From: Neelides folsomi
Lineage: Eukaryota; Arthropoda; Collembola; Neelipleona; Neelidae
Direction: 5' to 3'
DNA length: 64,000 nucleotides
NCBI GenBank assembly: GCA_034687125.1
Contig: JAQGBZ010000001.1
Location: forward strand, 682,001 to 746,000
Part shown: piece after piece, positions 25,001 through 60,266 of the stretch
Layout: the number at the start of each line of letters is the position of its first letter
Numbering within the stretch: position 1 is the stretch's first letter
Position numbers and translations under genes: made by a program
The notes under the pieces: model-generated
Database searches by the model: none
What the model was told of the DNA's origin: nothing
The model's input: only the letters and a program-made list of their open reading frames with translations

Positions 25001-28000
25001 ACTAAATTATTAAAATCTCATTAAATAAAGTAAAGTATGTATTAATTGTTAGATCGATTTTCACAAAGTATGTACTATACAATTAATGCTTGTCCAATTT
25101 TTATTAGTGAAAATGATAGTGGAGGTAGTAATTGCGTAAAAAGCATAAGGAAAAATATACAAATTTGTGGATTGATGAATAAAATAAAAGATATCTTTGG
25201 AAAAATTGGCTAGATTCATTCAATTGAATAAATTCAAACCTCGTTGGCCATATGCTCTCAAGCCGCAAGTGTTCCCGAAAGAGCTTAGGATATTTACAAT
25301 AAGATACTTAAGCATTTGCTTGGTCTTTACAAGAAATAGACTCAAGGAGGAGATAATAATATTATTATTATTTCTAACAGTGAAGGAAAGAACCGAGTTT
25401 TACTATCCGCAATTTTTTCTTAAGAGTTTACAAGCGCCAGCCACACGAAAGACTTGAATACTAATTTTTGGAGTAGAATGTCATTTCCTCGGATCTCTCA
25501 GAAATCACCCGGCTCGAGCCTTCCTTAATCCCAAACTCGTTTCCAGGTGGTTCAAGAATGGGAAAGTTCTCGTTGGCAGTAACCGAGTCACGGTCTCCCA
25601 CCAGAGACTCACAATCTTCACAGCGGTAATCGATGACCAAGGCGTCTACCAGTGCTTTGCCCAAATTGGAAATATTAATATTCAAGCATCCAGTGAAATT
25701 GTTTTTGAAGGTTGGTGAATATTTTAATATCACAGGATTAAATATTACACATTTTCGCTATCCAAATTAAAGTAATATTGTAATTATTTAGACTTTCAAC
25801 AAATTACTATATTTATGCATAATAAGTTACCAAATTGTTAAAATATTCATGTCATTTGATGAACCCGGTCTTTTGATCATGTGAGCTAATGGCGTGCCTG
25901 TTTTGTGTCTTCCAGCTTCCGGCCCCGAATTAATTCATACATTCATATCTCAAAGTCTCCAGCCGGGGCCGAGAGTTTCACTCAAGTGCTCAGCAGCCGG
26001 GAATCCAATTCCAAAGATATCCTGGTTCTTTGACAGCCAGGAGGTGATTCAATCATCTCCCCTTGATCCACTCCAAAGCCGGCTATGGCAAAAGTCAGAT
26101 CGGTACTCGGTCGGGAGCTACCGGCAGTCCGCAATGGAGGTTGTAAGTCACCTCAACATTTCTAAGGTTTTTGTGGAGGATAGCGGATTCTATCGATGCG
26201 AAGCTGTCACCTCCAATTTACTCCCTAGTGCCTCACATTCGGCCAGATTGGACGTTTATGGTAAGAGAGAATCAAAGCGAACCTTTGAACTTTCTCATAA
26301 GGTTGGTCAGATGCTTATGGCTTCCCGATAAATTCAGGTCCGTTGTTCATCAAAGAAATGGGAAGCTTAACCTTAGAGGTCGGAACGACGACTTTCATTC
26401 CTTGCTTCTACGGCGGCTATCCCGTTGATAGAGTCGTGTGGCAAAAGAATTCTCGCGAATTGAAACCAAAGGACAAAGACCCTCAGTCTCGATATATTAT
26501 TCTGGCTAATGGAACTTTGAGGATTGACAAGATCAAAAGTGAGGGCGACAAAGGACAATACACTTGCGTTGTTTCAAATAGGAAAGGAGAAATTGCAAGT
26601 GGATCTCTTGACGTTAATGTTATGCGTAAGCCTCCTTACAAATTCTCATTAATCTCACAAAATTACTAAAATACATAAGAAGTTATTAAAATAATTGCAA
26701 ATACCAACCAACAACCTCACTGTGTTAATTTGCAAAAATTTTGCAAATTATTCCTTTCAAAATTTTTTAATAATTCAATATTGTGAATATTTCGTGATAA
26801 TGATTTCATAGATAAAATACCGATGTCACTTTTGTGTCTTATTTTTTTATGTATAGGTATGCATTAAAAATTAACATATAACAATATTTATAAAGACAAT
26901 TGGTCTTGGATAAATAAAATTATGGAATAAAATTTAGTAAAAATAATGATGAAAGAGTAATAAATTCACACGAGAGAAAATCCATTGAGATTAATAATGG
27001 AATTAATGAAAACAATGAATTTCAGGTCCTCCTGTAATCGCCCCCTTCAAATTTGATGAGAATCTCATTGAAGGGACGCGAACTTCTCTAACGTGCAACG
27101 TCAACTCTGGAGATCTTCCAATTGAGATTGTTTGGCTCAAGGACTTTCAAGAGATCCCTGCATTTCTCAACATAACCGAAATGAGGGTGAAATTCTTTAG
27201 CTATCTCAGTTTCGAGGAACTCAGGAACGAGCATTCTGGAACATACACATGTTCTGCATCCAATCCTGCATCAACGACAAATTATTCCGCGAGTCTCGTC
27301 GTGAAAGGTATTTACTACTTTCGCTTCTTCTTTCAACCATAACTCCCAAAAGGTCCCAATTCCCTAATTTGCAACTAAATCACTCAAGTAAACAACATGA
27401 TATCGATATCTTGTTGCCATTTTATGGTTCTATTTTGGATAAAATTCCCATTTATTTCGTCTTCCCCTCCTTGTATTTAATAATACATATCTCGTAACAA
27501 ATATACATAATATGATACATGCTTTACTAATGGTGAAAGTTCCTGATATCTCTTTACCTGGGATTAATTGGGACGTATAACAAAAAGATTACCTTATATA
27601 AAAAATATTAATAAAATGATAGTTGTACTCACATAATAAAAATATAGGATGATACGAGACTCGTACATAAGAAGTAATATGATACTTACGTTAAGTTCAG
27701 TATAACATCATGTAATATTCTCCAGCCATTTTGAAGACTAATATAGAGGAAAGAATTTAAAATTTTAATTTAGTTTATGATTAAAAAATATGTGATTAAT
27801 GCGTTCGTACGAATATGAAGAAGAGAAATTACAACCCAAGTTTGTAAATTAAGAAAAGAAGATTTAGAAGGCCCCTATATTCTTATATTCACGCAGCGTA
27901 CGGCGTAGTGATTTATTGACGCGGTAAATATTAATTATTTATAACAAGGGTTTATTACCTCTTTCTAGAGAGGGAAATTAGTTGGTTTCATCTCTTGAAG

Positions 28001-31000
28001 TTTGGAGTAATCACACCGCAGAAGGGGAAACAAGCGAGTTTTATTTCTTTCTATTTTCTCTCAACAGTTCCTCCCAAATGGATTCACGAGCCTCAAAATG
28101 CAAAAATTGTCTTGAGAAGTGATCACATAATCCCTTGCTTCGCCGCCGGCTTTCCCCAACCAATTGTTAAATGGTTCAAAGGTGAAATTTCAAATTCATT
28201 AAATTTCCATTTGGAACCGAAGATTCCTTCATCTAAATAACCCTCATTTTCTCTCAGAGTCTGGTGTGATGAAGTCATTAATCAAAACGGATGGAAAATA
28301 CGAAATGCTTGAAGATGGAAGTCTTTTAATTCGAGACCTCAAACCAGCCGATTCCTCGTCTTACTTGTGCGAGGTGACGAACGGAGTCGGGAAAGGGATT
28401 TGGAAATCGATTCAAATTCACGTCAACAGTTAAGAAATTAAATTCTGTCCCTTCTTTTCTCTTCTCCATCCTTCCTGCCTATTCTCCAAATCTCTTAAGA
28501 ATTCTCCTTCAACTATTTTAATATATCATCTTCGGACTTAATCTCTTTTAAGTAGGAAACTTTTATCCTTTAACCCATTTCCCCCCATTCTTGGACAAAT
28601 GGTGAGGGACAATGGGATAAAAATTTAATTTAGTAAAGAAGGAGAATTTAGCAAAGGAGAAAAGGGATTTGGGAGGAGAATGAAGTAAATGTTCCATTCA
28701 TTAAAATTAAACGGTTCGTTGGGCAGCTCCGGCAAAAGTTTCAGCTCCGATGACATCCGTCGTTGTGGCTGAAGGACTCCCGGCCCTTTTGAAGTGTCAA
28801 GTCCATGGTGATCCTCCTATCCAAATCCTGTGGAAAAGAAGTGGAATCCTCATTGAGGAAACTCTCCCACGAATCTCATTACAAACGTCTATTGAGTCCA
28901 ACTCCACCTTCCTCACGGCTCAGCTCAAGATTGAGAAAAGTGCGAGATCCGACTCGGGCCTTTACACATGCCATGGATCTAATGAGTTCGGACGGGAAGA
29001 CGATACGATAAGTCTGGAAGTCAAAGGTAGATCTAATCTTCAACCAATAAATTGTTCACTACTCGCCTTCTCCGTCTTCCTCAATTAGAGCCAGAGAAAA
29101 GTTGGGGAACTTTTTTCCTATTTATTATGTAAAATCGATTTTCTCTGCGGAGCTAATTGGATTGGGCCGATTTCTCATATGGAGGGATTTCTCCATTTAT
29201 TTCCTCATTGTCAATTTCCTCTTTTATCCCCTTATTTTCCCTCTCTTTCGTGTTCACCACCGAGGCGGGGAAAATTGCTATTAGCAATTTAGTTCCAAAT
29301 GCTTATAGGATATATAGAAGAAGCCTTGGGTGAGAAGATGTATATTTCTAATTAGTGATATTTGGGACATTATAGCCCGTCCAATGCCTCCTAAGGATTT
29401 TATCGTCGAAGAAACTGGCTCAAGATTTATTCGACTACGTTGGTCTTTGGGACCTCAAACCCCGAAATCTGTCCCAGTCACCTATTTTATCCTTCAGTAT
29501 AAAAAATCCTCAAGTCTTTCTTGGAGCGGAGTGGAAGAAGTATTGAATACAACGGTTCAATCTCCCGCAACCCACGTTGTTCTAGAACCATTGGAACCAG
29601 TCACTACTTATGAAATCAGAATCTTTGCTTCTAATGAAATTGGCCAGAGCCTCCCTGCAGAGCCTCATACAGTCAGCACACTTCCTGAAGGTTAATTAAT
29701 TAATAATTTCACTAAAATAACTTTTAATCAAAAAATCATTAATTAACATTAAGCAGACATTAATTGCAATATTTATTAATACTAACTTAAATAAAGCATG
29801 TTTACTTGACCAAGGACTTACCATGAGTGAGATTAATTTAATATGAATATTTGGAAAAAATCAATATCAAAAAATTGAATTAAGAAAAAATTAAAAATAT
29901 TTACAGTTATTAGAAAATTCCAGTCATATTTAATGTAAAATTAATTATTAAAATCACTAAATTATAATTGGACAGTTGGAAATTCCATTAATGCTTCTAT
30001 ATAAAAATTGGCCTTTATTGCTTGAAAAACAATTTAGAAAGTGATAGAAGAAGCACAAGTCAGGATTTATATGTTAAAGTGAGATTAATTAAAAGAGCAA
30101 ATTGGGCTCAATTCCTCATTCTGTAATTACAATTTCAGCTCCATCCGGACCTCCACTAAATATTTCCACCATCCCACTGAGCCCAAATTCGGTGTTGGTG
30201 AGATGGGAACCGCCAGAGGCCTACTTACAACATGGTCCAATTGTCGGTTATCACGTCTTTGCCTCAATCCAGGCTAGCGGAATCTATTACAAGCTCCAGA
30301 GCGGTTCTAGTGGTGAGAATGGGAGCAATAATATGAACCCAATTATCGTTGACGAGAAGGAGAATTACCACGTGGAAGTAAAGTCGCTTCGGCCCAACTC
30401 TCAATATCGAATAACAGTACGGGCGTACAACAGTGCTGGCATGGGCCCTGACTCTCCCTTTGTTGCCGTTCACACTCCCGAAGGCGGTAATTAACTACGT
30501 GTTATTAATTACTTCCTCCTCACTATTAATTTCACCACTAAGGCTTCCATTTACACATTAAATCTCGTCTATGTAATCTTTACTGTCTCCACATCCCTAT
30601 TAAATAGAAATTATGTATAACTACTATACAACAAATAAATACAATATTGCTAAATATAATGTATTAAATATGTATTATGTAAATGCATATTGTTAAAACC
30701 ATATAAGATTTTCTATACATTATAATAATTGTTGGGGGAATCAACTTTTACTTTGACAGGTTGAACGGTTGAACCATCAAACGATTTTTTATTTGCAGCA
30801 CCTGAAGCTCCACCGAGGCATATTGAATGCACGGCGCTTTCTCCTAAAAGTTTGCAGATTCAATGGGAGTCCCCGGCTCCAGAGTTTGCCAACGGTCGTT
30901 TGACGGGATACAAAGTCATCTATCAACCTGTCGCAGAAGAGCGAGTCGGTGAGTTCATTCTCATGTGTTCTTTGCATTCCACTTCCCCTTTATGGACACG

Positions 31001-34000
31001 TCTTACATAATCCTTTCTCCTTAATCTTCTTGCGTGAGGAAGAAAATGACAATTAGAAGAAAGTTATACTTGCGAAAGTTTTTAGGTCAAAGATAAAATA
31101 TTAATGAAATCTTTTATTTTAATACTTTTTCATTCCTCGCGTTTTAATAGCAATTTCATCCTCTAATAGCTTTTTTTCCAAAAATTTTCTCAAGATAATG
31201 AAAGTAGCAGAGGGGAGGATTACTTTTGTAATTAGATGAACAATTAAAACAGCTTCCTCATTAAATCTAATTTTGGACGACGAGAAAACTTGTGATTTCA
31301 ATTTAAAACTTTTTGAGCTTGATCAAATTCCAAATTCCTTGTTATAAACAAATTATATCATTAAAAAGTTGTACATTTTACACTATCATCGAATCATCAT
31401 TATTTTAAAATTACAAATTTTCCATATTGTATGGGGAGAAAAGTTAAAACAATTCAATTTTAAGTTTATGAGATGAAAGTCAAGTTATATGTAATTTAGT
31501 GAAAAATTGAAAGATGAAGGATTTCATAAAATTTTCGCTTCAAAACATTGGGGATGACAATTAATCCTATTTCGTGTTCTTTCCCTCAACCTGACTTAAT
31601 GAGTTTCTTTCTCTTCAAAAGGTGAAAAGCCCGAAGTGAAGAAAACTTCAAACCGGGAAACGACGCTTCACGGACTACAAAGTTTCACTAATTACTCAGT
31701 CAGAACTTTGGCTATAACTGTGGGAGGAGAAGGAGTTCTTTCCGACCCAATCCATTGCCTCACAGAGGAAGATGGTAAAAAGCCAAATAGCTCTCTTTTA
31801 ACCCTTCTTTAATCAACTTCTTTGTCCTTCTCAATTTACACCTTAATTAATTCCCCGTTCTTTTAATTCCCCGATTTGGTTTAATGCCCGGTTCCCAGCT
31901 GAAATTGAAACTTTTTGCCGCAGTTTATCTAACCCGTATTTAACTTCCACCAAAGGGCCCTTAATTCAAGGGCCAAAGTTTGGTAATGTAAATAAGTGAA
32001 TTTGGGTGAATTAGTGCCAGACGAGCCGGAAGACGTGAAAGTGGTGGTTGGTGGGATCGGGACGGCCATTGTGAGTTGGCTCCCTCCACGAAGTCCGAAC
32101 GGGGTCATTTCCAAGTACATCGTATTCTGGAAGTCAGACAACGAGTCTGTAAAGGAGAAAACGCTTAATCCTTCTGGGGATGAAGAACAATTCTCGTTTG
32201 AGATCAAACGGCTGAAGGAGAATCAACGATACTCGTTCTGGGTGACGGCCAGCACAAGCTCTGGACCTGGAAAATCCTCCCATGCTCAAACTTTGACCAT
32301 CACTTCCAAAGGTGTGAATGATGATAATCCTTTTAACTCCCCTTTCCCGTCCATCAGACTGATAATCCTCTCCGCTCAGCTCCCAATTCCTGACACCGAT
32401 GGGGAAGAGAAATGAGGGAGAGGAAACTCCGTCATAAAAGTTGGGCTTAATTGGACCGATTTACTAACGAGTTTAATGGTCTCTTTTAGTACCAGCCAAA
32501 GTGGCTTCGTTTTCAGTCATAAGGACTCCCTTGTTGGATCAGCCCGTCATACTCCCGTGCCGGCATTCGGGAATCCCACCTCCGAAGTTTACGTGGATAA
32601 GGAAGAATCATCGAATGGAAAATCCTCACGTGATGAGGAATGGATCTCTTTTTATCACACGTGTCAAGGTTTGCTTTTTCTTTAACGTTAAATCCAACCC
32701 ATAATGTTCTTTTTAATAATAAGTTTATAATAATATTTTTATCTAAATCTTACTGTTAAATCTTGAAAATGTTGAAAAATACAGATAAGAAAATGTTAAT
32801 TTTATTTTAAAATTAATTTTAGAATACTTTTTAATAGATCAGTCTATTTTCTGTGATTTACAACCTGTTAAATACATATTAAAATGTTATTTAAACTGAT
32901 TTTAAGGAAATCTTGATTTTTATGATTTTAGGACAGCGACGAAGGTGATTATACTTGCAAAGTTGAAAATTCACTTGGACAAGACGAAGTTCATCATAAA
33001 ATTATCATCAGCCGTCCTCCCCCGGAAGTTCCTATTTATTTGGGCTACGTTTCTCATTCGAGTATCCAAGTTCACTGGGAGCCTCCTCTCGCCGACCCTC
33101 CTGTCACAGGTTTAAAACATTCATCCTGCCACTTACTGTTAGATAGTTGAATCTGCATGACAAATACCCGCACCTGCTCACAATGTGGAAGGGAATTAGA
33201 GGAAGGCGTTCATCAATCAAGCCTACAAATACACATTTTGATAAGTGGGCTTTACAATGGAATAACTTATGTAAATTCCCCAGGCTTTGTTCTCCTCTCC
33301 CAACATGGGACCGGAGGTGAGTGGGAAAGAAAGAACCTTTCACCCAAACTCACTTCTTGGACAATGGAAAAGCTGCTTTGTGGGAACTCTTACACGTTTA
33401 AGATAGCAGCCGTGAACGCGGTCGGGGTCGGTCAAATGAGCAAGGAATTGACTAAAAAGACTAATGGAGCGCCCCCCGAGGCTCCCAAATTAACCGAAGC
33501 TCTGGACGGGAACGGGACGTTGATCCGAATAGATCTGAGCCGTTGGTCTGACGGCGGCTGTCCAATTACCAAATTCCATATTGAATACAAACCAAAGGAC
33601 TCGGGATCCTGGCAGCGGATTTATAGGAAAGATAATCAAACCCGAGTGTTTGTGTTTAAGTCAGAGGCTAAGAAGAAATATGACATTAAAGTGAATGTAG
33701 AAAACGACGCCGGCTCAGTCACCAAAACATTCCATGATGTTGAATCTATACCTGGTAATTGCTTTCAACATCTTCAATCCTTACATTTATATGGCCCTAA
33801 AAACATTTTCTAAGTAGGGTCATACTTTACCAAATACATTACGTTGACTATTAGAGTTTCCATATGTTCCAACATGTTGCTTTTAAAAGTTGATGGTGGC
33901 TCAGAAATCACTGGCCTATAGTAGTGTATACCTTACTATGTATTATATTTATCTTATTTTATATCTTGTATCGAGTGTTTTTTTAAGGACGTTACCAACG

Positions 34001-35874
34001 AGTATGTTAAAGCATAGGGAAAAGTCACCATCTTCTATGCTTTAACATTACTCGTTGGTAACGTCCTTAAAAAACACTCGGTATTTATTCCAGAGTTCTT
34101 CGCCAACTATGAGAAAGTGATGGAACGGACAGATGAAAAGTCAAGCAACGGGAGCTTCCTTACAGATCCCCATGTTATTGTCCCCATTGTTTCGGCTGTC
34201 ATCTGCACGTGTGCCATTGCTGTTTGTATTCTCATCATCCTTAAGAGAAGGTAGATTATTGAACATTCTTATATTAGATCATAGGCCCATTTATCTTCCT
34301 CTAATAATGCCCACACAGCATTTATTTATTCTTGTATTTATAACATTACTAAAGGTTTAGATTTATGTAAGACTCCTAAGAGAAATTAAATAGAAAGTAC
34401 TGACATTGGGTTTAGTTTTTAATTATGATTAATCTAGGCACGCGGAATCAAAGGATGAATGGAAATTCGGGCACAGCAGCAGTCAACAAACATGGCTAAG
34501 TTCTGAGATAGAAAACAACCAAAATGGTAAGTAGTTACCTAACTATTGCTTAAACTTTAAATTTAAGATCCAATACTTAAATTTATTATTTTCACCGTTA
34601 TCAAAAGATTTAAACTATCAAATAACTTCAATTTACCAATTTTAAAAATATTAAATTAAAATATTAAACGCCGTACATATACATATGCAGGTATTTTACT
34701 TTTATGTACACTCTTGTGCCACACTCAACTTCCGACTTCCCCTTTACCCTCCCTGCTATAATTTTATTTTCCCCGAAGCAGTCATTTTGTAGGTTTGGTA
34801 CCTTATATCTTTAATCCACATATGATCACAATTAAAACTTCCAAATATCATGATTAAAATACAAGTGGTTGAGAAATGGTGTACTTAAAACATAAGAGTG
34901 CAATAAATCTGGCCGTTCACAAAGTGGAATAAAGGGATTTTGAAATATTCGGATTTTTTGAACCTATCGAAGTAATTGTATTTTTCACCATTGGGATAAA
35001 CACAAGAAAGGAGTATGTTCATGACCTCATTAAAGAGGATGACTTCAAGAAATCTTGGAAGAAAAAATTGGATGAATCTCCCATTGAAGAGATATGGAAA
35101 TCTATCAAAGATTGACTACCTCTATTCAATGCTCGCGTCAAGAACAAAGAGGGACATTTTGAGTAAACTGTATCACATCTTAATTGTCACAAATTAAGGT
35201 ATGATTTGGTATATTATTTCCGAAATTAACCCTTAAGTTCTTTATAAAATTCCATTTTACAAGTCGGAAGTTTAGTATGGCAGGAGAGTGTACAACTTTA
35301 TTTTATTAAAATTATAACTTCTTACTACATAAATATGATACAATCTACTTTTGCATAAAGAATGCGGAGGAGTTGGAGGCAATGGGAACATGTCGATATA
35401 TGCAACTTTGAATTCAACTAAACCGATTCCAATGGCCATCCGGGACTCGACAGTTCGGTTCCAAACTTTCGGGCAAAGGGAAAATTATGATGCTCCAACG
35501 ATGCCGGCATACTACAAGAAAAGCTGGAGGAAATCCAATAACTCTTCACCTCCAGAGGGAATCGACTTGGGTACATCCTTGGAAATTGAAATACTTCAAT
35601 GGCCCTCCAGATTACAACTACTCACATATTGCGTCTACTATAAAAGTCAATTTTAATTTTAGGTGTCTCACATATTTCCAACCAGAAGAATTACGGCATC
35701 AACCCTCAGCCTCTTCCTGAGCCGCCTCGAGCATTCCGAGCTACCTCAACGTCCTACTATGAACATGATCCCAATTCAGACTCGGATGTGGAAGATAGCG
35801 AATATCAGAGTTATGCAAGGCCTTATCAACTTACAGCTTACAGAAGAAGTAAAAAGAAGTTAAAATACGAATAA
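13006..35874 (+). CDS. Dscam: Dscam-like immunoglobulin/fibronectin receptor, complete CDS (1845 aa)
   Basis: Homophilic Ig-superfamily adhesion receptor of neurons and, in arthropods, haemocytes. Exons: 13006-13075, 16021-16204, 20367-20509, 20603-20786, 21557-21687, 24144-24264, 24616-24897, 25547-25710, 25916-26260, 26338-26625, 27026-27307, 28068-28181, 28258-28428, 28727-29026, 29376-29690, 30139-30486, 30799-30948, 31622-31774, 32015-32311, 32490-32668, 32932-33109, 33284-33754, 34094-34250, 34438-34526, 35361-35570, 35663-35874. They sum to 5538 nt and all junction phases agree. Approximate domains by residue: signal peptide 1-24; Ig1 27-132; Ig2 133-237; Ig3 238-333; Ig4 334-426; Ig5 427-541; Ig6 to 637; Ig7 to 731; Ig8 to 826; Ig9 to 926; FN1-FN4 927-1347; Ig10 1348-1450; FN5-FN6 to 1623; membrane helix 1650-1673; tail 1674-1845. 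Each Ig has its Cys pair with a YxC motif or a close variant. The order Ig9-FN4-Ig10-FN2, the LLCG motif in FN5 and the W-x-DGGCP motif in FN6 are diagnostic of Dscam. Exon 4 uses a GC donor. Only one copy of each Ig2, Ig3 and Ig7 exon is seen, so this is not visibly a hypervariable Dscam1 locus. The tail is short. A Dscam paralogue other than the insect Dscam1 orthologue is possible. Confidence 0.93.
13076..16020 (+). other. Dscam intron 1 (about 2.9 kb), no gene seen
   Basis: Non-coding AT-rich sequence between the signal-peptide exon and Ig1 exon 1. Short open frames occur on both strands, for example a hydrophobic one at 14278-14484, but none has flanking splice sites and phase that would fit the gene. 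A small palindromic AT-rich patch lies near 15680-15750. Confidence 0.6.
16205..20366 (+). other. Dscam intron 2 (about 4.2 kb), splits Ig1
   Basis: Starts with a GTACGT donor and ends with TTTCAG. It contains no second copy of either Ig1 half that I can see. Positions 18430-19420 are markedly rich in TATA/GTA/TAC words and differ in texture from the flanks. They could be an old degenerate repeat, but I find no terminal repeats or coding remnant. Confidence 0.55.
20603..20786 (+). other. Dscam: Dscam exon 4 (first half of Ig2) ending in a GC splice donor
   Basis: This exon encodes the first half of Ig2, from VDHPYEVYIMG to the codon fragment AG. The 3' end reads ACCAG followed by GCAAGG. No GT lies near enough to serve, and the AG|GCAAG context is the known strong consensus of GC-AG introns. 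Joining to the acceptor at 21556 restores the frame (codon AGA) and reaches the second Ig2 cysteine in FVCIAKN. The equivalent exon in insect Dscam1 is the exon 4 array; here only one copy is seen. Confidence 0.82.
21688..24143 (+). other. Dscam intron between Ig2 and Ig3 (about 2.5 kb)
   Basis: This is where the large exon 6 array sits in insect Dscam1. I looked for further Ig3 first halves, meaning an acceptor, a Cys in a DLLC-like context and a phase-2 donor, and found none. The only usable copy is the exon at 24144-24264. The open frames at 22397-22582 and 23128-23331 (minus) have no family motifs. Confidence 0.55.
33972..34080. repeat. Near-perfect inverted repeat (hairpin) in the intron before the Dscam transmembrane exon
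   Basis: A left arm of about 47 bases begins CGAGTGTTTTTTTAAGGACG near 33972. The reverse complement of the right arm (about 34035-34080) begins almost identically, with only a one-base length difference in the T run and one in a TA/TAA step. The loop is about 16 bases. The right arm ends about 13 bases before the acceptor at 34093, so the branch-point region falls inside the potential stem. It could be a small MITE or foldback element. Confidence 0.9.
34094..35874 (+). other. Dscam: Dscam transmembrane and cytoplasmic exons
   Basis: The exon at 34094-34250 encodes a juxtamembrane stretch, a hydrophobic helix (IVPIVSAVICTCAIAVCIL) and a basic stop-transfer (LKRR). Three exons (34438-34526, 35361-35570, 35663-35874) then give a tail of about 170 residues, about half the length in insect Dscam1. 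The third-last and last exons carry SIYATL, which fits the ITIM-type pattern S/I/V/L-x-Y-x-x-L, a proline-rich patch (PQPLPEPP), an acidic DSDVEDSEYQSY block and a lysine-rich C-terminus. The stop is TAA at 35872-35874. Confidence 0.85.
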
Positions 35875-36704: not shown

Positions 36705-39700
36705 TTATTTTTCTTCTGGAGCTTCTGCAGCTACAACAGGTTCAGTCTCAGCCACAGGGACCTCAGCGGGTTCTTCGACAACCGGCACTTCGCTTATCGC
36801 TTCTTCTGTTGTCGTTTGCTCAACTGGAATTTCAGTGCTTTCTTCTACAACTGAAGTATCCTTTGCTTCCTCAAGAATGGGCACCGGCTCTTCAACTGGT
36901 TGAATGATCTGAGTCTCACATTCTGCCTCACTCTCCAATTTCTCAATTGGTTCTTCAGGTGCTGGTGGCTCAGAAGTTTCCACAACCGCTTCAATCTCCT
37001 TAGGTGGTTCTTCAACTTTAACTTCTTCAGTCTCCACAGCTGCTGATTCCACAGGAATTTGTTGAGTTTCACACTGATCTTTGGTTTCAACCATCGGAGT
37101 CATTTCTTCTGGTACACTTTGACCAACATCGACACTATCAACTTCCATCGGTTCTTCATTTTGCTCGGTTGGAATCTCCACCTGACTCGTCAACACTTCT
37201 TCATCCCTTTGTTCAGGAACTTCAATTGTAGGTTCAGGAAGTAAGCTTTCTTCTACCAATTCTGAAGGAGGCGGTTCGGAAATTTCTGGTTCAGGAGCAA
37301 TCACTTCACTCAATATTTCAGAAACAGATTCAAGCTTTTCTTCAGGCACTGGTTCAGTTGGAATTTGCAATTCTTCAGAAGTTGGTTCATGTGGAGGAAC
37401 AAATTGTTCTTCCATAAGAATTGGACCTTGAGATTCTGTTGGAATTAATCCCCCTTCATGCTCATGAGTTTCATGGGCCACCAATGGAATTTCAATTTGA
37501 GAAATGAGATTGGAACTTTCTGGGTTCTCATGAAGTTCAATTGGCATTTCTGGGTTGAATGTTTGTTCTTGGAAGGCTTGTTCTGATGGAGCTTCACTTT
37601 GTTGTAACAAGACCTCTGAAGGTGGAACCAATTCCTGTTGAACTTCACTCTCAAGCTGAAACGTAGTTTCCTTGATTAAAGACGGTTCTTCAGATTCTTG
37701 AATTTCCATTGCGTCCGGTTCAACTCTTTCAACTATCGGCATAGGAGCTTCAATTTCCATTGCCTCAACATGAGGAAGTTCAATAGAAGCCTGGGGTTTT
37801 GCCGGCTGATCATCCAATGATGCAATTGCTGAGGAAGAACTGTCCGCCAGGGCCAATCTATCAGTTTCGCTCTGTTCAACTGCTTCTGATTTTCCCGGTC
37901 CTTCAATTTCTGGTTCTTTCTTGGATTCTTCAGGGCGTTCGAGTGGCCCTTCAGACCTCGGAGCTTCAGGGTTAATTTGGGGAAAGGGTGGAGGAGGAGG
38001 TTGAGCAGCTTGTTGTTTCGCTTTTTCTTCAAACTCCTTTCTTAGAATTTCCATTTGTTTCTCAATGAACTTTTGGAAGGTTTCGTCTTCGACGGCTCTC
38101 TTGCAATGTTTCTTTAACTCTTCATTGAATGTGTCACTCGACTCCATAAATTTTCTCTTCTTTGCTTCGAACTTTTCTTCAATCTGTTGTAATTCTGTTT
38201 CTAATTTTTTCTAGGAAAATCAAAAAATTCGGACGTTATACTTTGGTTAGATAGATACAGATACAGACAAACATGGATGAAGTATCTAAAAAATCATTAG
38301 TTAAAATAGCTTTTTTAAAATAAAATAAAAATAAATTACCTGGTGCATTGTCAAAGATTGAACTTGGCGTTTCAATACACTCATTCTAGCTGTTGTGACC
38401 ACCGATCTGATATCCGGCACCATCGAATCTGAGAAGATTTCATTGATGAGTCGGTGGTTTCTTAAATATCTCGCGTGTGCTCGATGTTTCTCAGAAAATC
38501 CATCATCGATATCTAAAAACAAGCAGAAAATCATAACAATTAATATTTAATTTTATAAAATATTAGTTTATATAAAAAATCATAGATAAATTGTAGAATA
38601 TTTAAGTACCATCTTCGTCTTCAGCAGGTTGAATTTCAATTCGCCTTTCGGCTGCAGATACTCCTTTTGAATTCCGGCTCGATTCGTTGTCTCTTTCACT
38701 GAGATCTTGTTGAGCTAAATTAATTTTATATATAATTTTATAATAAAACGATGGACCCTTTCTTTCGTTCAAGCAAGCAATTGAAAAAGCCATTTTTTGA
38801 AGAAAATATATTCTATATTACAAAAGAAATTAAGCAATGAAAACATACCTCTAGTTTTAGCAGCAATGTAAGATTGATATTGTGGTGAATTGTGAAATGT
38901 TTTCAAGGCACGTTCATATTCACTCTAGTAAGAGAAAATAATGAAAAGAATAATCAACTGTTACAAAAATACTTTTACCCAACTTTTGCCTTTTAATTTA
39001 AAACTTAATATGAGAGCAAGAGATCTTATAAATCTTAATTAAATATTTCAGCCAAAATAAAAGTTTTCATTTCATCAACATGCTTAATAATTTGAAAATA
39101 AAAAATTGCAGTTTTCGGAGTACTTTACATCGACTATTAAAAAAACCTTTTGTTTTGGCTGAAATCCAAGATTGGTAGCCGGACGAGTTGTAATAACTTT
39201 TCAAAGAGTCATTATAATCCACCTATTTATTAGCCATTAAATTTAAAATCTAAAAAATTAACTTTCATTTATTTTAAAACTAAACTTTATCCTACAATTT
39301 TATCCATTTAAATGTCGTTCAAAAATTCTAATTCGTCAAGTTTTTGATTGATTCAGATTATATCATAGTTCCAGATTTTTGAAAAATTCAAGTAGAATAT
39401 CATAAAAAGTTTTAAAAATTACCTTTTCACTTTCATATTCCGCAATGTATTCCTGTTTTTCAGGCTCAGGTAGATCTCTCCACATCCGTCCAATAATTTT
39501 CCCAATTTCCCATAACTTCAGATCCGGATTTTCGGCTTTGACCTGATCCCAAACTTTTCTGCTATATCTCATGTAGGGCATTAAAGGCTTCTCAGGAGCT
39601 TTCGGAGCTTTCGGAATTCGGCCATCCTATTTATAAAAATACAATCATTTTAGAGTTGAAAGGGAAAGTGAATATTTCTTGAGCTTACGGCAAATCCTTT

Positions 39701-40880
39701 AGATCCGAGTTTTTGAGGGCTAAAGGCCGGGTGGCTATGAGACGTCTGAATAAACGGGTTCACAATGTTGTCCTTCATTCCCATCATCCCTCCGCTAGCT
39801 GAAGCTCTCAGACGTTCTTTTCATCAAAACAAAAATAAAATATTTATCTCTTGATGAATTTTCCTCATTGGTGCATTGGTTTATTAACAACTTTTGATTT
39901 ATCGTATAAATTTAATACAAAGTATACAGACGCTGTTTATTTATCAGAGAATGAGCGACGAAAAAAGCACGCATGCAGTAAATGATATTAAAAAAGGTTC
40001 AATGTGAGGGTTGAAAGAATAATTGATCATTAATCAAAACAAGGAAACAGAACGGGGATGGACATTTTACCTTTGAGAATGTTGAAGGTCGGCAGACTAG
40101 AATGAGAAGACATTCCATCTACAATTAATAAAAATTCAAAAACTAAGAAAAATAATAAATTAAACAGTGAATGTCAAAATCTACCATGCTCAAATGACTA
40201 ATTTACTCAAATTAACTTAAATTAATCAACTGGAACCAGTTGGTTAACATTCTGATTTTAAAACAGTTCGAATTAATCAAAACGATGTCATTGATTTCAA
40301 ATGATCGGGTCAGCTTGATCGAGTTTGATAATCGGATTATCGGATTATAATGTGTATAATAAATTACTTTTTATTTAGAATTATACCTATAATTAACAAT
40401 ATTTTATATATTTGTATCAAATATTTTTAATGATTAAAAACATTTTCTTCATAGTTAATGTTTGATAAACAAAGAAATGCTTATCATGAGAAGACAAGAA
40501 ACGTTATACATACATATTATTCAACTCTCACTTTAACATTGCATAATATATGGAGTTTAAATTTAAATATTAGCAATTGACAAGTTTTGCAAATTGTACT
40601 TTTGACTATTGGCGTCATTAATCATGAGGAAATATGTCAATAAAAACGTTAATAATAAATGAAGGTATAACAAATAAAAGGATATGGAAAGTTGGAGGAT
40701 TGAAGGTTTCAAGCATCATTAAACTGTTTATAAACTTAAGCAAAAGCGTTAACTATAATGATGGATATAATTTGACATGTAATCTTTTTTGACATTTGAG
40801 TAAACCGGTGCTTAATTGAAGGTAAACTTACGGCCAGAAGGACTCGATATATGCCGGTTATAGTTGGGTGGAAGAGCCAT
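36705..40880 (-). CDS. SMARCE1: SMARCE1/BAP111 HMG-box subunit of the BAP (SWI/SNF) chromatin remodeller, with alternative exons
   Basis: Nuclear subunit of Brahma-associated remodelling complexes (dalao/BAP111 in flies). Exons, start to stop: 40832-40880, 40071-40118, 39689-39816, 39423-39626, then one of 39147-39222 or 38849-38924, then 38610-38714, 38340-38512 and 36705-38210. With one alternative exon the CDS is 2289 nt (762 aa), all phases consistent. Start [10 protein letters not shown]. The HMG box begins near residue 89 ([30 protein letters not shown]). The family signature follows: [37 protein letters not shown], and [13 protein letters not shown] running into a coiled coil with a SDTFNEELK motif. 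Residues from about 340 to 762 form an uninterrupted Glu/Pro/Val-rich acidic tail with no predicted fold. This makes the protein nearly twice the length of the vertebrate one (about 410 aa). It is head-to-head with the UBAP1-like gene. Confidence 0.94.
38849..38924 (-). other. SMARCE1: SMARCE1 alternative exon A (76 nt)
   Basis: Encodes [19 protein letters not shown] plus IAAKTR, the segment directly after the HMG box. The acceptor has a long pyrimidine tract ending CTTACTAG and the donor is GTATGT, so both sites are strong. It is 76 nt long, phase 0 in and phase 1 out. It is homologous to exon B upstream (12 of 25 residues identical) and joins the same neighbours in frame. Confidence 0.88.
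39147..39222 (-). other. SMARCE1: SMARCE1 alternative exon B (76 nt)
   Basis: Encodes [19 protein letters not shown] plus ISAKTK. It has the same length (76 nt), the same phases and the same alignment to the SMARCE1 family segment as exon A, 222 bases further downstream in transcription. The acceptor is AATAAATAG and the donor GTTTTTTT, both weaker than those of exon A. Including both exons would add 152 nt and break the frame. Skipping both also breaks it, so exactly one must be used. Confidence 0.85.
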
Positions 40881-41396: not shown

Positions 41397-44006
41397 ATGG
41401 AAAGAGATGGTTAGTTAGCCTTGCATTCTACTCTGTGTGTCATCACCTCGCCATTCGTTTAAATCCGTTAATGGAATATTAAATCAGCTGAGGAAGAACA
41501 ACATCATTGATTTAGGTAGTTAGTTACAAAAAGATTAATTCAAAAGTCATTAAATAGGGCCATTTTCAATATTTTCAATTAGGAAAACTTGGATTCTCCC
41601 AAGAAGACTTCCTTCGTTGTTGTGATATTTTATTTTTTAGTGCTAAATTTTGTACTTTTGAGGGCAAGAGCCTTTAATTTTTTTATACAGACATGTCAAA
41701 TGTTGTTCACCTTTATGAACCATTATTTTAAATTCTCTTGAGCTCAATTCCAACTGGCCCTCAACCTTGAATTGTTCGTCTTAGATTAAATATCTTCACC
41801 TTGGACTTTTACACACATTTTCTTATATACCATTCAATTACATCGTCATCATCCCTACAGAGATAAAACAAAGGTGAATAATGAATATTTTTTAACTTGT
41901 CCTTTTCAATAACTAGGAATCCAATCGTTTACAATGCTTATTGTTATAAGAAAATTCTGCCATCATGTTTGGTATCAAAATTTTAAAAATATATTGTTAA
42001 TTTTTAGGAGTACCTTCTTCAATGTCCGACCGAGGTTATTTGGACGACGTTCCTTTAAAGCTAAATAAAAAGTTCACCCCAATTCCACGGCCAATATTTA
42101 AAGAAATCGATATCCATATTCCAATTGACGCTCTTGAAGAGGATGTAAGCCAATTAATAATGAAGGTCAGAATCGTAAAACGCCTCGAGATTGAATTTTT
42201 TTCAGTTTTTCTCGGTTTCCGCCGAAACTCCAAAAAATACCGCAAAGGTTCCAAATAAAAAATAGTGGATTATAAAAGAATTATTAAATTTTTAATCAAA
42301 TCAAGGGATATTTATACTATATTCAGGGTAGATGAGATTGAGCTGCCTATTTTCAATGAATTATAACTTTAGTACTGTATGATCGATGATTAAAACCTTT
42401 AAATAAATGTAAGGTTAGTCGATGGGTTATCTTTTATCGTATATTGAGTTGTTTAGTAGTAAATTATTAGCCGAAATTATTAAATCATTAACGGTGAGCA
42501 CTTTATTTCTGTAATTCATTAGAATTACGGAGTTCCATTGCCCGACCCACTCTGTTTATACCAATACTATTTTATATTCTTTCAAGTTTTGAGGATTTGA
42601 CCGTTTCTTTTTACAAATATATATATAATTTAGTGTAACTTTATCTTCCATTTTCAATATTTATTTAAAATTGGAAATTATATAACATTGTTTATATGGT
42701 AAACTTTTTAATTTAAGGGATTTTAGAGAACTTTAGTATAAAAATTATATAGAGCAAAATTTAAATTGAATAATGCACCATAGCAAGTGAGTTATTATCA
42801 TTAAATTTTATTGTATTTTTGGAGTTTCGGCGGAAACCGAGAAAAACTGAAAAAAACTCAATCTCAAGAGGTTTTACGATTCTGCCCTTCAATTAGCTTT
42901 TAAGGAAATACCCCTAATTATATCTGTTGAACATTTTGAATTAAAATTCAATAATAAAGTAATAATTTATTTTTCAGTATGACTTCACACATGAACGCAA
43001 AGTTCTTGAAGACTTTAAGAAATGGGAAATCAGTCAAAAAGAAGAAGCAGAGAAATCCGCAGTACGGAAACAGAAGGAATTGGAAAAGAAAGTAGCAGAA
43101 GAGCAACGACTGAAAGAATTAGCTGAAGCTCAAAGCGAAGTTGAAAAAGTTGAAGCAGCCGAATTGGAACGTCGGAGATTGGAAATGGAAAGAGTTCTAT
43201 TGGAAGAAAAAGAAGCTGAGGAAGTTCGGTATCAACAGTCAATAGAATCGCAAGCAGAAAATAATGACAAAATAATGTATCAACAGCGATGTTCACCCGC
43301 TGGTAGTTCCTCACTCCCTTCACATCACAGTCCTGCCCAGTCACTCCATAGATCCCCTAATCATTTCGGCCACAATATTTTAGGACCTTCTCACGGTCAC
43401 GGTAAATTTGACTATTCCGATTTTGAGCCCGACACGGCCAATCCTTTCGACAATGCTGAGATCAACTCGATAAACGAAATGGCGGTTCTCGCATCCGTTC
43501 TAGATCACTCCACGTCTCGGACCGGCGTTTCCTCGTCGACCAAACTCAACAATGTGAATTACAAGGACGGGTCTGGAATGTCCTCTAGTTGTCCTACAAC
43601 TTCCGGGAATCCTCCGCACCCTCCTGGGAATTTATACTATCCTCAACAAACTCCGAATCATCAGAATCCTTATGCTCCGCCGGTTTTGGGCTCTGGGTTG
43701 GATTGGAGGCCAGAGGGGAATTACTACGGTCACCCAGTGGACAATGATCTGCGAGTTACCAATTCGACGTCGTTTAAGAAACTCTACTTTCCTCTTCTCT
43801 CGAGTATGGCTAGTCGTGAACGGGAACGGAATGCGATCAAGGCACTCGGGCCACTCCCTCATTCTCAACCGCAGCCGACAACGCTTCCAGTCCAGAGTAT
43901 GTCAAGCCCGCTGCTGGCCCAGCCTCCCGCAAGCCACGCAATGCCAACGTCCGTCCCCCACTCCCATTCCTATATTCATTACAAGCCCTACAATGAAGAA
44001 CCATGA
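41397..44006 (+). CDS. UBAP1: UBAP1-like ESCRT-I subunit lacking the C-terminal UBA region
   Basis: UBAP1 is an ESCRT-I subunit that sorts ubiquitinated cargo at endosomes. Exons: 41397-41409, 42008 to 42165 (or 42144), and 42978-44006, all phase-consistent. This gives 399 aa, or 392 with the earlier donor. After MERDG comes the family's N-terminal UMA segment (YLDDVPLKLNKKF and, after the junction, YDFTHERKVLEDFKKW). A charged coiled coil of about 70 residues follows. Near the middle is the conserved DYSDFEPDTANPFDNAEINS, matching the UBAP1 block with F-E and NPFDN-like residues. The rest is Pro/Ser/His-rich low complexity up to a stop at 44004-44006. Vertebrate UBAP1 is about 500 aa and ends in overlapping UBA domains (SOUBA); I see no such helical domain here. 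Two in-frame donors compete: GAT|GTAAGC (42145) is the stronger by consensus, and AAG|GTCAGA (42166) lies at the edge of an inverted-repeat element. Confidence 0.82.
42162..42890. mobile_element. MITE-like element with about 78-bp terminal inverted repeats in a UBAP1 intron
   Basis: The left repeat (about 42162-42240) begins TGAAGGTCAGAATCGTAAAA. The reverse complement of the right repeat (about 42813-42890) begins TGAAGGGCAGAATCGTAAAA, and the two stay nearly identical through TTTCTCGGTTTCCGCCGAAA. About 570 AT-rich non-coding bases lie between. The size (about 730 bp), long inverted repeats and lack of an open frame fit a non-autonomous DNA transposon. No clear target-site duplication is visible. 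The left edge reaches into or abuts the annotated exon end. Confidence 0.85.
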
Positions 44007-44361: not shown

Positions 44362-45683
44362 TTACGAACAGTCCATTTCCTCATTTGGTCGAATATTCCT
44401 TCCAATACTTGACGGATAAAGACAGAGATCGAGAAAAGCATCTTGGATGGCTCTTCTGCAAGGGTTAACTGAACGATGTCCACCAGCTTTCTGTGACACC
44501 GAAGCTCCTCGGATATTATCCAGATAACCCATTTGGATGATTTCTTCAGCAGTTGGCAATGCTGGGCCATTGGGTTCAAACACAATAGGTCCTTCGTATT
44601 CGTAAAGTGGAGCTTCATCAACTTTCGGTGGTGCTAAAACCCCTATAGCTGACGGAGCTCCGCCAATTCGAATCCCAGAAGAAAATTGATTTTGACGACC
44701 GTTTAGAGAAGGGAGTTGGGCTTGTTCGGCTGCATTGATCAGATTGGTTCTATTGGCAAGAATCTCTTTGGTGTCGCGTTCTTTTAGTAGTTGTTGGTCG
44801 GCCAGGGCAGCCGCTTCTGAAGTTTTATGTGCATTGACAATTGAATGAGCATCCATTTCGGAAAACATGAGGTCGTCAATGAGGGCTTCTCTCGTTTTGA
44901 TTTTCCTAAGCTTTTCCTCTTTCTCCAATTTAACATTTTCGTAGCGCCGTTGTTCTTCGAGGAATCTCTCTTGTTCGAGAATTTCTTCAAGCTCTAGGAG
45001 GTCGGGGTTTAAGTGGATCTTTGATTTATTGATTTGATCCCGGTTCACCTTCTTATATTGCTCAATTTGACGGTTTGTTTCGATGATGTCGATATTATTG
45101 ACGAGATTGAAGATGATCGTTTCGACCTTTAAAAATGAAATTTTGCAAGTGCGATTTAGAGAGAAAATAAGTAAATAAAAATATCCTATTAAATCATTAA
45201 AATTATCTTAAATTTCTTAAATCTTAAATTAATGTTAAGTTATTTAACCGATAAACAAGGGTAAAATAATTATGTAATGAATCGAATTATACCTCTTCTA
45301 AATAATCGTTGTACTCTCTCAACGAAGAGAAGTCTGACTCTCTTTTAGTGTAATCTTTTAATACTCGTTTCCTAATTTCAACCTCTTTTTCGACTGAAGG
45401 ATCTTCAAATAACTGAACCCGAAATCCGGATCTTCTCAATGCATGTCCGCATTCGGGGCACACTCCCGATCCTAAAGCATTCGAAAATAAAATGTAAATT
45501 AAGTGTACCTTCAAGTCCATTAAAGCAAAGTTAAAATATCGTCAAAAATTATCAAATACCTTTTAGAAATAGTAGCTCAACACAGCTGTCACATAGAGCA
45601 TGACCGCACACATTGACCATCAATTTTAGTGCCGGATTCCGATACTTCGTCGTTTTACAACGTGGACAAGCTAAATCGTCCAT
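44362..45683 (-). CDS. MNAT1: MNAT1/MAT1, CDK-activating kinase assembly factor (TFIIH subunit)
   Basis: RING-finger protein that stabilises CDK7-cyclin H and anchors the kinase module to TFIIH in the nucleus, acting in RNA polymerase II CTD phosphorylation, repair and CDK activation. Exons are 45560-45683 (ATG at 45683), 45293-45471 and 44362-45126, with phases 1 then 0, giving 355 aa. Residues 6-54 form the C3HC4 [19 protein letters not shown] and GVCPECG, with the last pair split across intron 1. Then come the near-invariant [38 protein letters not shown], a long charged coiled coil (about residues 110-190), [18 protein letters not shown], and the C-terminal CDK-activation segment with [11 protein letters not shown]. 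About 15 extra residues follow that helix, and the protein is about 45 residues longer than the human one. It is convergent with the UBAP1-like gene. Confidence 0.96.
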
Positions 45684-49196: not shown

Positions 49197-50815
49197 ATGA
49201 AGCCCGTTCTCCTCCTCGTCTCCGTCCTCATCGCCGTTTCCTTCACCTATTCCCATGCGGCATCAATCAGAGTCAAAAGACAAGTCATTCCGAGAGAATT
49301 CCAAAATCTTAACATTGAAAATTATCTTAAAGTAATTAATCATCATCAATTTTAATCATTTAACCATTTATTAATTTTCACATTTTTAAGCTATTACCAA
49401 CATGTTTTTCTATTACATAATTCTATCATTATCGTTATGCACATCCTCAAAATATTCATTTATTTCTTTTACAGAATCCACGTGCTGTTGCTTTCCAATT
49501 GAAATGTATCATTTATGATGGTGAGAATAATTTAACTTGGATTTTTCTTTATATGTCGATTATATTCTTTAATGTTTTTTTAAATAATACTTTGATTAAA
49601 TTACTATTTGAATACAGTTGTGATTTCTGGGTACTTTGTTATTTGTTAAATGTTAAATAAAATTTTAATTGAATCTTTTAGGTCCTTGCGACAGGATTGG
49701 AAAATATTTAAAAGTAACAATTCCCGAATTGCTAACTAACCAATGTAAGAGCTGTGATCCAGACCAAAGAAAGAAGGCTGGACAATTGGTGGCTTTCATT
49801 CAACAAAACTATCCCCGTGAGTGGGACGATGCTGTGAAGAAATTCCAGGTGAGCCAATCTCCTCTTTTTTCCTCCAACAAATGAATTTTAGGCCAGACAT
49901 GCTAATTGCACTTTACCAATTCTCGTTAATTAGCACATTAAAAAGTAGATGCATCAAACGCGTATTTTTATTACCCACAATGGTCCCATTAGATAATTGA
50001 ATACATAATCTTCCGAAAGCCTTTTTATTTTCACTTGATTATCTAATTCCTATACATTCCAATTATTATGAAAAAGGTTCTATTGAATTCAAGTTAGACA
50101 GGTGGCTTGTTTTTTGGACCCATACAATATACTGGTTTGAGTCCCTATATGATTTTTAATCGCAATTAACGTTTTACATTCAATTCACATTAAAGGATTC
50201 ACATAAAAAGTAATGTGCAATTAAGGCAGTTTCAGAATGAAAGAAAGTGAAAATCACCATTTTTTATTTCCCATTACTTTTCCTACTTTAACTGTTAATT
50301 ATGAGTAAAATGAGACGGTTGAATAAATTGGGTCTAATGTTCAACAGGGAAATCAACAAATTAAGCAAGAAGATCTCAACAAGTTCGAGGATCTTTTGGG
50401 AGTTAAATTACAGCCAACCCCGGCTCCTGATGCTGCCCCAGCTCGCCCCGTCGATTTGAAGAATGCGGCCAACTTCCTCTCCCAAGTTGGATCCCAAGTT
50501 TCCCAAAACGTGAAGAACGGAGCCGCTGCTCCAGTTGGAGATGGCCCCATTAGGAACCAAGCCCAATTTGCTGCTTCCATCTCAGACCTCATCAAGGACT
50601 TGAGGGCTACGACAGTGAAGCCAGCAGCGGCCGGAGAACAACAAGACAAACTTACCATGATTGTTTCCGAAGTTCAGCAAATGGCTGACAAGACCACACC
50701 AAAGACCCAAGTGACTCCGGCTCCAGTTGCTGTCGCCGCTGCTCCAGTAGCTGTTGAAATTCCAGAAGTTTCCGCTGCCCCTGCCGAGATTGAAACGACT
50801 CAACCTCAAGCTTAA
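49197..50815 (+). CDS. Chemosensory protein CSP1 (OS-D family) with long Ala/Pro-rich C-terminal extension
   Basis: Secreted small ligand-carrier family (OS-D/A10) that binds hydrophobic molecules in the lymph of sensilla and other tissues. Exons: 49197-49331, 49475-49520, 49682-49848 and 50348-50815, phases 0, 1, 0, giving 271 aa. Signal peptide residues 1-21 (VLLLVSVLIAVSF core), then RVKR at 25-28, a possible furin-type processing site. The CSP core has C56-X6-C63-X18-C82-X2-C85 (CIIYDGPC, CKSC) and the family C-terminal motif FIQQNYPREWDDAVKKF. Normal CSPs end about here, near residue 116. The last exon adds about 155 residues rich in Ala, Pro, Val and Gln with a VAVAAAPVAVEIPEVSAAP-type block and no cysteine. 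It lacks the ancestral CSP intron but has three others. It is the first gene of a five-gene plus-strand cluster. Confidence 0.93.
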
Positions 50816-52601
50816 TTTTAATTAGCTCAAAAAATAATTAATTTATCCTGAAAATCTCAATACTTTAGCTTTACTCTCAAAATACTTGTATTAATTTTAT
50901 TGAATAATTAGTTTTATTAAATAATTGATTAATTAAATAATTAATTATTGTGACTTTTCGTCAGACCGAGTGATACTTATTCGTTAGATAATACCTTCAA
51001 GATAAAAACTTTGTTCTTTATAAATATTACTTAAACACATCTTTAATTTACTTATTTACTTTTATTTTAAGAAATTTTAATTAAAAATTATTTCTCATTT
51101 TTGGAATTCCCAAAGGGTGCTATTGACTGAAAAGCAGACAATAAGATCAAATATGTAATACATATGAAAATATGTCCTATATGTTCGATATTCACTTTCA
51201 ACATATAAACAATGATAAATGATTTAAGTGTTAATCTGTAACTACTCACGAGGTAATTACTTGTATTAAATTAACGACAAGCTCTCCTGTTTACTACAAT
51301 TCTTTGTGATTTTGTAGCATAAAGTAACATAGTAAATACATAAAAGATTCATACTACTACTACAGATATTATACTGATACTGATGTACATACATTACTAA
51401 TGTAGATCCAGATGTACCATAATAAGAACATTTAACATTAAAATGCCCAAAAACTTTAACATGACCTTAGCTTGGATGGATAAGAAAATATTATGTTAAA
51501 CCATTGGAGTCTGAAGTATGCGTTTATTTGATCAAAGGTGGTTGGAAAATGTTTGTTCTTTGGATGTGCGAGGAAGGAAGAAGAAGACGCGAGGTCGGTT
51601 GACGTATAAAAGTGAAATTTTATCCAATTCACAATCACATGTTTCCTCATCACCTCAACACACGTCATGAACCATGATGAACATCTTAATCATTGATTCC
51701 TGCAAAAGAAAATGAGGATGTTCCCATTTTCTATTTATTTCCTGTCCAAATGTCGCACTGGCTGTCCTTCGGGATTCCAAATTCCGAAGGTGACAAGAAA
51801 ACGACTCCCGACCTCAATAAATACTTCACCATAATAATGCATACATAAATACATATAGTGTAGTATATGTCTCCAAAGGTCCGTCTCATTCACTGATGCA
51901 ATCGACCATTGTTTGCATAGAACTAATGGGACAAGACAGGACAATACATAATAAGTATGATATAAGTAGATATTGTATAATGTAATACAATATCCTCTTC
52001 CTCCTTCATTCGTTTCCTTATAATTTCTCGTAATTAATTCTTTCTTTGATTCTTATATGATTCTCATGTTCTTCTCATTACATTCTAATGCCAAATGTAA
52101 AACAATTCAATTTCCTAAGTCCTGTACGTGATTTAACTCTTTAATAGTAAAAGATAGTATTCTATTAATAGTTAAAGGGTCTTTGGTACATTGTTCAGAC
52201 TGAGAAAAATAAAGTCCTTTTTCTGTCACGACAATCGAAAGGGAATAAGAGTGAGCTTATTATTGACAAAAGGGGAGTTGGATAAGAATGTGACCTTTGA
52301 ATTGAAGGTTTTAAGAACTAGGTCTAGGCCTTAAGGGGCCTCCCTTCTTCCAGACCTTTTCACCTCGGCCTTCATTCAGCTGCTGTTCGTCCCTCGAAGA
52401 AGGACTGGAAATAAAGTAGACGAATTTCTTCAAATATCCAACAAATTTAAAGTTGAGAAATTTTAACTTTCATTCAATTTTTTATAATTAGTAAATTAAA
52501 TGTCTAAGAATTTAAGAATGGTCAATTAATTTATTTCATTCATTCATTCATAATTAGTAAAATTAGTTCATTATCTAACAAATTCCCTTAATTGTCAAAG
52601 A
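50816..52601. other. Intergenic region CSP1-CSP2
   Basis: About 1.8 kb. The first part is the CSP1 3' region. No CSP motif (Cys pair, KC-L/I-x-Y or the N-Y-P-W C-terminal motif) and no other gene is visible. A CATT tetranucleotide stretch lies near 52538-52553. Confidence 0.65.
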
Positions 52602-59700: not shown

Positions 59701-60266
59701 TTAGTTAAGTTGTATGGGACCTTTTTGCCCTGGAAGTCTCTGTGGGGTATCTGTGGTGAAAATGGAGAAAAAAGATTGAATTAGATAGACGATGAATGTG
59801 GGATATGGGAAGTGTTGTAGTGAGATGTGTGTATGGGACTATCCTCGATTTCATCGTTTTATCCACATCCAGATCCTCTGGTTAACCCTTCGACTCCTAT
59901 CTTTAATAGAAAGTCTCCACATGTGCGAATGATATCTAAAATTCCACGAGGAATGGGAAGCTCTGAGATATAAAGAAGGTGTATAGAAGTAATATAGTCC
60001 GCCTGGTTCTTCCCTACCCATGCCCACACTTTGTGTGTGTATATCAACTATGGGAGTTTGCTGTAACTTTCTCAACATTTTAAGCCCCATTGTTGGAGTG
60101 TCTGTGGAAAATTTGTACCACTTACTTGCAGAGTGCAGTTGATCGTGCAAGGTACTGCAACAACATTTTTCATTTCATTTTCTTCTCAACCCTCCGAAGT
60201 TAAACTCCTGTCTCTTTTTGAACAATTCTTTAGTTTTTTTAAAATTGTTTATAATAGGTTGATAAT
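56712..60266. other. Intergenic region CSP4-CSP5 (about 3.6 kb)
   Basis: AT-rich, with no further CSP exon that I can find and no recognisable gene. Open frames at 58529-58789 (plus) and 59851-60150 (minus) lack motifs and suitable splice sites. The CSP5 promoter must lie at the right end. Confidence 0.6.
56757..56762 (+). terminator. Putative poly(A) signal of CSP4
   Basis: AATAAA 46 bases after the CSP4 stop codon. Confidence 0.5.

Follow-up and report, generated by a model that had tools for sequence, protein, structure and literature searches.

The window, i.e. the whole stretch of 64,000 nt analysed here, carries on its minus strand a complete and intact SMARCE1/BAP111 (dalao) gene, extending from position 40880 to position 36705. 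Several other genes and repeats surround it. A Dscam-type gene (15930-35656, plus strand) is represented by Ig and FN3 ORFs and by the DSCAM/DSCAML C-terminal FN3 domain; its matches in a six-frame self-comparison (E up to 1e-3) look like ordinary Ig-Ig and FN3-FN3 similarity, and its adjoining Ig ORFs at 25458-25715 and 25885-26328 match at 35% over 60 aa. A near-perfect hairpin of ~50 bp with a short loop (33968-34084) follows the last of the Dscam FN3 ORFs that we identified; it folds at −73.5 kcal/mol (z −15.9), and none of 200 shuffles was as stable. Outside this hairpin, a candidate foldback element or small-RNA hairpin, the window contains no further exact 12-base match to its 39-nt arm. 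On the other side, upstream of the SMARCE1 start, two 76-nt arms of an inverted repeat (42161-42236 and 42816-42891; 93% complementary, 579 nt apart), which may be the terminal repeats of a small mobile element, immediately precede a coiled-coil ORF (42966-44003, plus strand) that lacks a Pfam match and presumably resembles UBAP1. They are followed by a gene for the CDK-activating kinase assembly factor MAT1 (44365-45207, minus strand; Pfam) and by a tandem cluster of OS-D/chemosensory-protein-like genes (49669-62337, plus strand), three fragments of which pass the Pfam OS-D threshold; the other members have no Pfam match and are similar in the self-comparison to the OS-D fragments or to each other. 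The Dscam-type, OS-D and MAT1 genes next to SMARCE1 point to an arthropod, probably a hexapod.

The spliced translation of the SMARCE1 gene is a frame of 762 residues without internal stop, composed of seven constant exons and one of two 76-nt alternative exons, which we call A and B. The features that concern us are the following:

36705-40880, minus strand: coding region of the SMARCE1/BAP111 (dalao) gene, an open spliced frame of 762 aa with a human SMARCE1 match and an HMG_box domain
40880-40832, 40118-40071, 39816-39689, 39626-39423, 38714-38610, 38512-38340 and 38210-36705, minus strand: constant exons
39423-39626, minus strand: constant exon that encodes the greater part of the HMG box and ends in EYESEK in phase 0 (spliced frame, Pfam)
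39147-39222, minus strand: alternative exon A, 76 nt (25 residues plus 1 nt), with a weak acceptor (7 pyrimidines in 16 positions) and the weak donor AAG/GTTTTT
38849-38924, minus strand: alternative exon B, 76 nt (25 residues plus 1 nt), with a strong pyrimidine tract (13 in 16) and the donor GAG/GTATGT
38610-38714, minus strand: constant exon 3' of the pair, whose frame requires exactly one 76-nt exon ahead of it (spliced frame)
39143-39165, minus strand: 5' arm of a hairpin, comprising the last 19 nt of exon A and the first 4 nt of the intron, 5' splice site included (23 nt, 91% complementary to 39045-39067)
39045-39067, minus strand: 3' arm of this hairpin, within the intron between A and B (inverted-repeat search, folding)

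The identification of the gene as SMARCE1/BAP111, already proposed in an earlier note made on this DNA, was supported by the similarity of the predicted protein to human SMARCE1 (PDB 6lth, chain Q; E 8.7e-46, aligned over 126 query residues). The Pfam HMG_box profile matched the protein with either alternative exon, well above the cut-off of 25.4 bits (B form: E 3.5e-19, 69.4 bits; A form: E 1.2e-18, 67.7 bits). As in animal SMARCE1/BAF57 and Drosophila dalao/BAP111, which share one row of an orthology table in the available part of PMC3307773 (BAF57 and dalao), a SMARCE1-type HMG box is accompanied by the conserved region that follows it, and both align to the human protein. The gene differs from these relatives by the duplicated exon over the end of the HMG box and by its last exon (36705-38210), 1506 nt long and encoding 501 residues, which adds a long tail rich in E, P and V.

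Exons A and B are located between the HMG exon, which ends at 39423, and the constant exon starting at 38714, A being the upstream one. Inspection of their borders confirmed the two 76-nt exons of equal phase that the earlier note had placed there: both have AG/GT borders, are entered in phase 0 and are left in phase 1. Either of them alone gives the open frame of 762 residues. If both are included, the junction AAAG/AGTGA reads GAG TGA and the frame stops after 169 codons, and if neither is included the resulting frameshift leads to a stop after 194 codons, so that the earlier assertion that using both or none breaks the frame also held. Exclusivity would thus be enforced at least by the reading frame. 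mRNAs with such premature stops are expected targets of nonsense-mediated decay. Mutually exclusive exons are described, in the available text on the Kassiopeia database (PMC3923563), as neighbouring exons of similar length that are homologous, keep the same reading frame and conserved splice-site borders, and occur one per mRNA. Exons A and B are neighbours of 76 and 76 nt, 12 of their 25 residues are identical, and they have the same frame and conserved borders.

In the protein, the pair does not fall entirely behind the HMG box. The Pfam HMG_box covers residues 8-75 of a 125-residue query in which the alternative exon starts at residue 66, i.e. 10 residues inside the box, and the structure of the human HMG domain (7cyu) stops at matching residue 76, 11 residues into the exon. 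The exon thus swaps the 10-11 residues at the end of the HMG box together with the 14-15 residues beyond, and its former description as lying directly after the box applies to this second part only. Eight positions are common to A, B and human SMARCE1 (Y3, K8, N12, S13, Y16, I20, A22 and K23); the net charge is +1 in A and +2 in B. By analogy with other HMG boxes, we take the swapped segment to be the end of HMG helix 3, on the minor-wing side.

Several observations bear on the origin of the two exons. Of the 25 residues, 12 are identical between A and B, as the earlier note had counted, and 11 of A and 13 of B are identical to the human protein. Their BLOSUM62 score of 67 compares with a permutation mean of −13.8, and none of 100,000 permutations was as good, which was likewise the case for A and for B against human. 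The pair was also recovered independently, at E 2.5e-7, when the six-frame translations of the window were compared all against all by BLAST. Scanning these frames with a profile built from A, B and human gave scores of 113 for A and 110 for B, which are high by construction, and of 31 for the third-best place, so that no third, decayed copy of the exon was found in the six frames of the 64 kb. Each exon has kept human residues that the other has lost: N4, S6 and Y10 in A, and E2, H11, P14, Y19 and R25 in B. The introns that flank the two exons match at only 17 of 40 and 12 of 40 bases in ungapped alignment; they are no longer alike, and the duplication is therefore not recent.

Site counting, which for this comparison covers 25 codons and one outside sequence (human), gave pS 0.70 and pN 0.325 between A and B, corresponding to dS 2.03 and dN 0.43 and to a dN/dS of about 0.2 that is only rough because dS is near saturation. 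The two exons differ at 8, 7 and 15 sites in first, second and third codon positions, and at least 15 third-position changes occurred in 1.2% of neutral runs. We simulated neutral drift with the same number of changes in 20,000 runs starting from B and again from A. The frame stayed open in 28% (from B) or 25% (from A) of the runs and 12 identities were reached in 1.0% and 0.8%, respectively; about 0.01% attained the A-B score actually observed, and no run equalled the actual match to human. These results suggest that A and B are old duplicates, both apparently constrained as protein. Long selection on the pair instead of a recent duplication, as the earlier note had it, is thus borne out by the neutral-drift runs and by dN 0.43 against dS 2.03. 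Its further statement that nucleotide divergence far exceeds protein divergence is true of synonymous sites only: overall, nucleotide identity (46 of 76, 61%) is higher than protein identity (48%), and the age claim is supported because of the synonymous divergence and not of the overall nucleotide identity. Raw pattern matches in viral contigs (14, 35) and genome contigs (84, 131), where animal DNA occurs only by accident, yielded no confirmed related locus.

We estimated splice-site strength from pyrimidine counts and from energies of pairing with U1. The weaker splice sites belong to A, the upstream exon: its acceptor contains 7 pyrimidines in 16 positions and its donor pairs with U1 at −4.1 kcal/mol, against 13 in 16 and −6.4 kcal/mol for B. 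With A as the upstream exon, this reverses the earlier assignment of strong sites to A and weak ones to B. The other six acceptors have 7 to 12 pyrimidines and the seven donors other than that of A pair at −4.1 to −8.1 kcal/mol; the constant exon 38714-38610 has splice sites as weak as those of A on both sides.

Known devices that make neighbouring exons incompatible were considered next. A mixture of U2 and U12 introns is not supported, all eight donors starting with GT and lacking the ATCCTT core of the U12 donor motif. Nor is steric incompatibility supported. The intron between A and B measures 222 nt, a splicable length in a gene whose model includes an intron of 62 nt (39688-39627), and branch-point-like motifs lie close to the B acceptor; given this length, nothing evident forbids the joining of A to B. 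Short AT-rich inverted repeats common to the first intron and to the regions upstream of A and B suggested docker-selector pairing, but they were not significant in shuffle tests: 63 and 71 of 1000 shuffles were as good for the 40 nt at the start of the intron that follows 39423, paired with the 100 nt upstream of A and B, respectively, and 267, 276 and 174 of 300 shuffles for whole-intron pairings, the latter being the comparison that covered a docker in the last intron. In docker-selector clusters such as Dscam exon 6 (Ivanov and Pervouchine 2018, in the accessible part of PMC6071210), complementary segments likewise lie near duplicated exons; the SMARCE1 pair differs in having no significant upstream docker for the selectors of both exons.

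An inverted repeat at the A donor, by contrast with shuffled sequence, is significant as a repeat. Its arms are separated by 75 nt and their duplex is worth −24.5 kcal/mol, with 0 of 1000 shuffles as good. With a score of 17 it ranks second among the ungapped inverted repeats of the 64-kb window whose arms lie no more than 100 nt apart, a class in which seven places reach at least 13; twelve block-shuffled windows gave seven such places in total and none of 17. The 146-nt hairpin folded with z −2.74 (3 of 200 shuffles as stable) and, in a second run, z −3.08 (1 of 200), and among 438 windows of similar G+C two fold equally well, although these may include the region of the hairpin itself. The arm in exon A has no exact 12-base match elsewhere in the window beyond its two arms. 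The edges of the repeat carry no target-site duplication, and we rejected a transposon origin; Rfam, at its gathering thresholds, and a tRNA scan found nothing.

The position of this repeat allows a further mechanism to be considered, on top of the exclusive pair and not as an alternative to it. The RNA hairpin might hide the 5' splice site of A and leave B as the default exon, and its melting, by a factor, by temperature or through elongation speed, would give A. The length and complementarity of the arms, the rank of the repeat in the window, the shuffle results and the fold of the hairpin all favour this possibility, for which the donor hairpins at the regulated exons MAPT (tau) exon 10 and SMN2 exon 7, as reported in the consulted part of PMC11802352, offer a precedent: there too, a single arm of a local RNA stem contains the exon end together with the 5' splice site. 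In our case 75 nt separate this arm from its partner, which lies further downstream in the intron, and the calculated accessibility does not favour B over A. Opening the 9-nt donor of A costs 5.8 kcal/mol, a value reached or surpassed at 20% of 400 random GT sites (the cost is 2.2 kcal/mol when folding is confined to 60 nt on either side, without the partner arm), whereas opening that of B costs more, 7.5 kcal/mol, reached or surpassed at 7% of random GT sites. Once pairing with U1 is included, net costs of +1.7 (A), +1.1 (B) and +1.0 (constant donor at 39689) result, and the mean unpaired probability is 0.10 at the A donor and 0.05 at that of B. The B donor can pair with sequence of exon B (−15.4 kcal/mol; 4 of 1000 shuffles did as well), the 146-nt local fold at this donor being unremarkable (z +1.15), and the 731-nt region folded as a whole is ordinary (z −0.58, with 5 of 20 shuffles equally stable). 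As the calculated opening costs do not make the A donor less accessible than that of B, differential masking of the donors is not supported in this form, and we regard the hiding of the A donor by the hairpin as conceivable but rather doubtful.

The weakness of the A acceptor and donor, as in a dying exon, also speaks against an exclusive pair, although the constant exon 38714-38610 is equally weak. It would fit a duplicate that is dead or dying and is spliced rarely if at all, in a gene that normally uses only B, and so would the location of the A donor, with its GTTTTT, inside an inverted repeat. Such an exon would hardly be expected, however, to have maintained an open frame, its phase and borders, and a protein similarity that exceeds neutral drift and has persisted despite near-saturated synonymous change, and we hold this explanation to be very improbable. 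The same conservation of the A protein sequence, with respect both to human SMARCE1 and to B and at a dN/dS of about 0.2, weighs against A being a poison exon, which needs no conserved protein sequence. According to this equally improbable proposal, A would be spliced in together with B and the transcript sent to nonsense-mediated decay, lowering the level of SMARCE1 without producing any A protein; the immediate GAG TGA at the A-B junction and the weaker splice sites of A are what it would account for.

We therefore consider it highly probable, from the protein-level conservation of both exons and the logic of the frame, that A and B derive from an old tandem duplication of one SMARCE1 exon and have been kept as a functional mutually exclusive pair, one per mRNA. 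Both exons would be spliced in vivo, each mature mRNA carrying exactly one of them, and two full-length SMARCE1 proteins would result, distinct in the 10-11 residues that close the HMG box, in the 14-15 after these and, presumably, in their DNA binding. Exclusivity would be policed by the frame and by nonsense-mediated decay, which would clear the products of double inclusion and of skipping; the accessible part of PMC6071210 counts this decay among the contributors to exclusive splicing. Because of the quality of their splice sites, B would probably be chosen by default, and use of A would be regulated and depend on help, perhaps because the hairpin folds and restrains the donor end of A.

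Tandem-duplicated exclusive exons are a well-described kind, as the portions available of PMC6071210, PMC3923563, PMC9013439, PMC5224494 and PMC9741552 attest. The SMARCE1 pair resembles those of insect Mhc, 14-3-3zeta, Dscam and MRP1 and of human PKM and U2AF1 in consisting of neighbouring homologous exons of equal length and phase, of which one is expected per mRNA, joining or skipping both breaking the frame in the present gene. It differs from them in its host, a core SWI/SNF subunit, and in that the swapped segment, whose exclusive use is predicted, covers the end of an HMG box. In the openly licensed literature, as far as titles and the beginnings of abstracts go, no exclusive exon pair is described in SMARCE1/BAF57/dalao/Bap111, in agreement with the earlier note, which knew of no case in this family. 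The available passages of PMC3303723 mention neither dalao nor Bap111 and those of PMC7954323 neither HMG nor chromatin, and PMC3307773 lists SMARCE1 and dalao in tables, its passages saying nothing about their splicing; no paper on a solution structure of the SMARCE1 HMG domain was found in the openly licensed literature. Tentatively, then, an exclusive exon pair in SMARCE1 appears to be absent from print, the general device being well known.

If the pair is functional, one gene would provide two versions of an HMG subunit that differ exactly at the end of the box, and a chromatin DNA-binding domain would join the protein segments tuned by exclusive exons. The diversity of SWI/SNF subunits is mostly known from gene paralogues. 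A comparison between the two natural isoforms could serve to test the role of the HMG box end in SMARCE1. In a bolder version, which we deem unlikely as a whole, the BAP complex of this arthropod lineage would have two interchangeable forms of its DNA-binding subunit, which would arise by exclusive splicing within the HMG box, and A would be kept in check by a donor hairpin that a tissue factor or temperature can open. Were the hairpin to act in this way, the locus would constitute a splicing switch for the grip of a chromatin remodeller on DNA.
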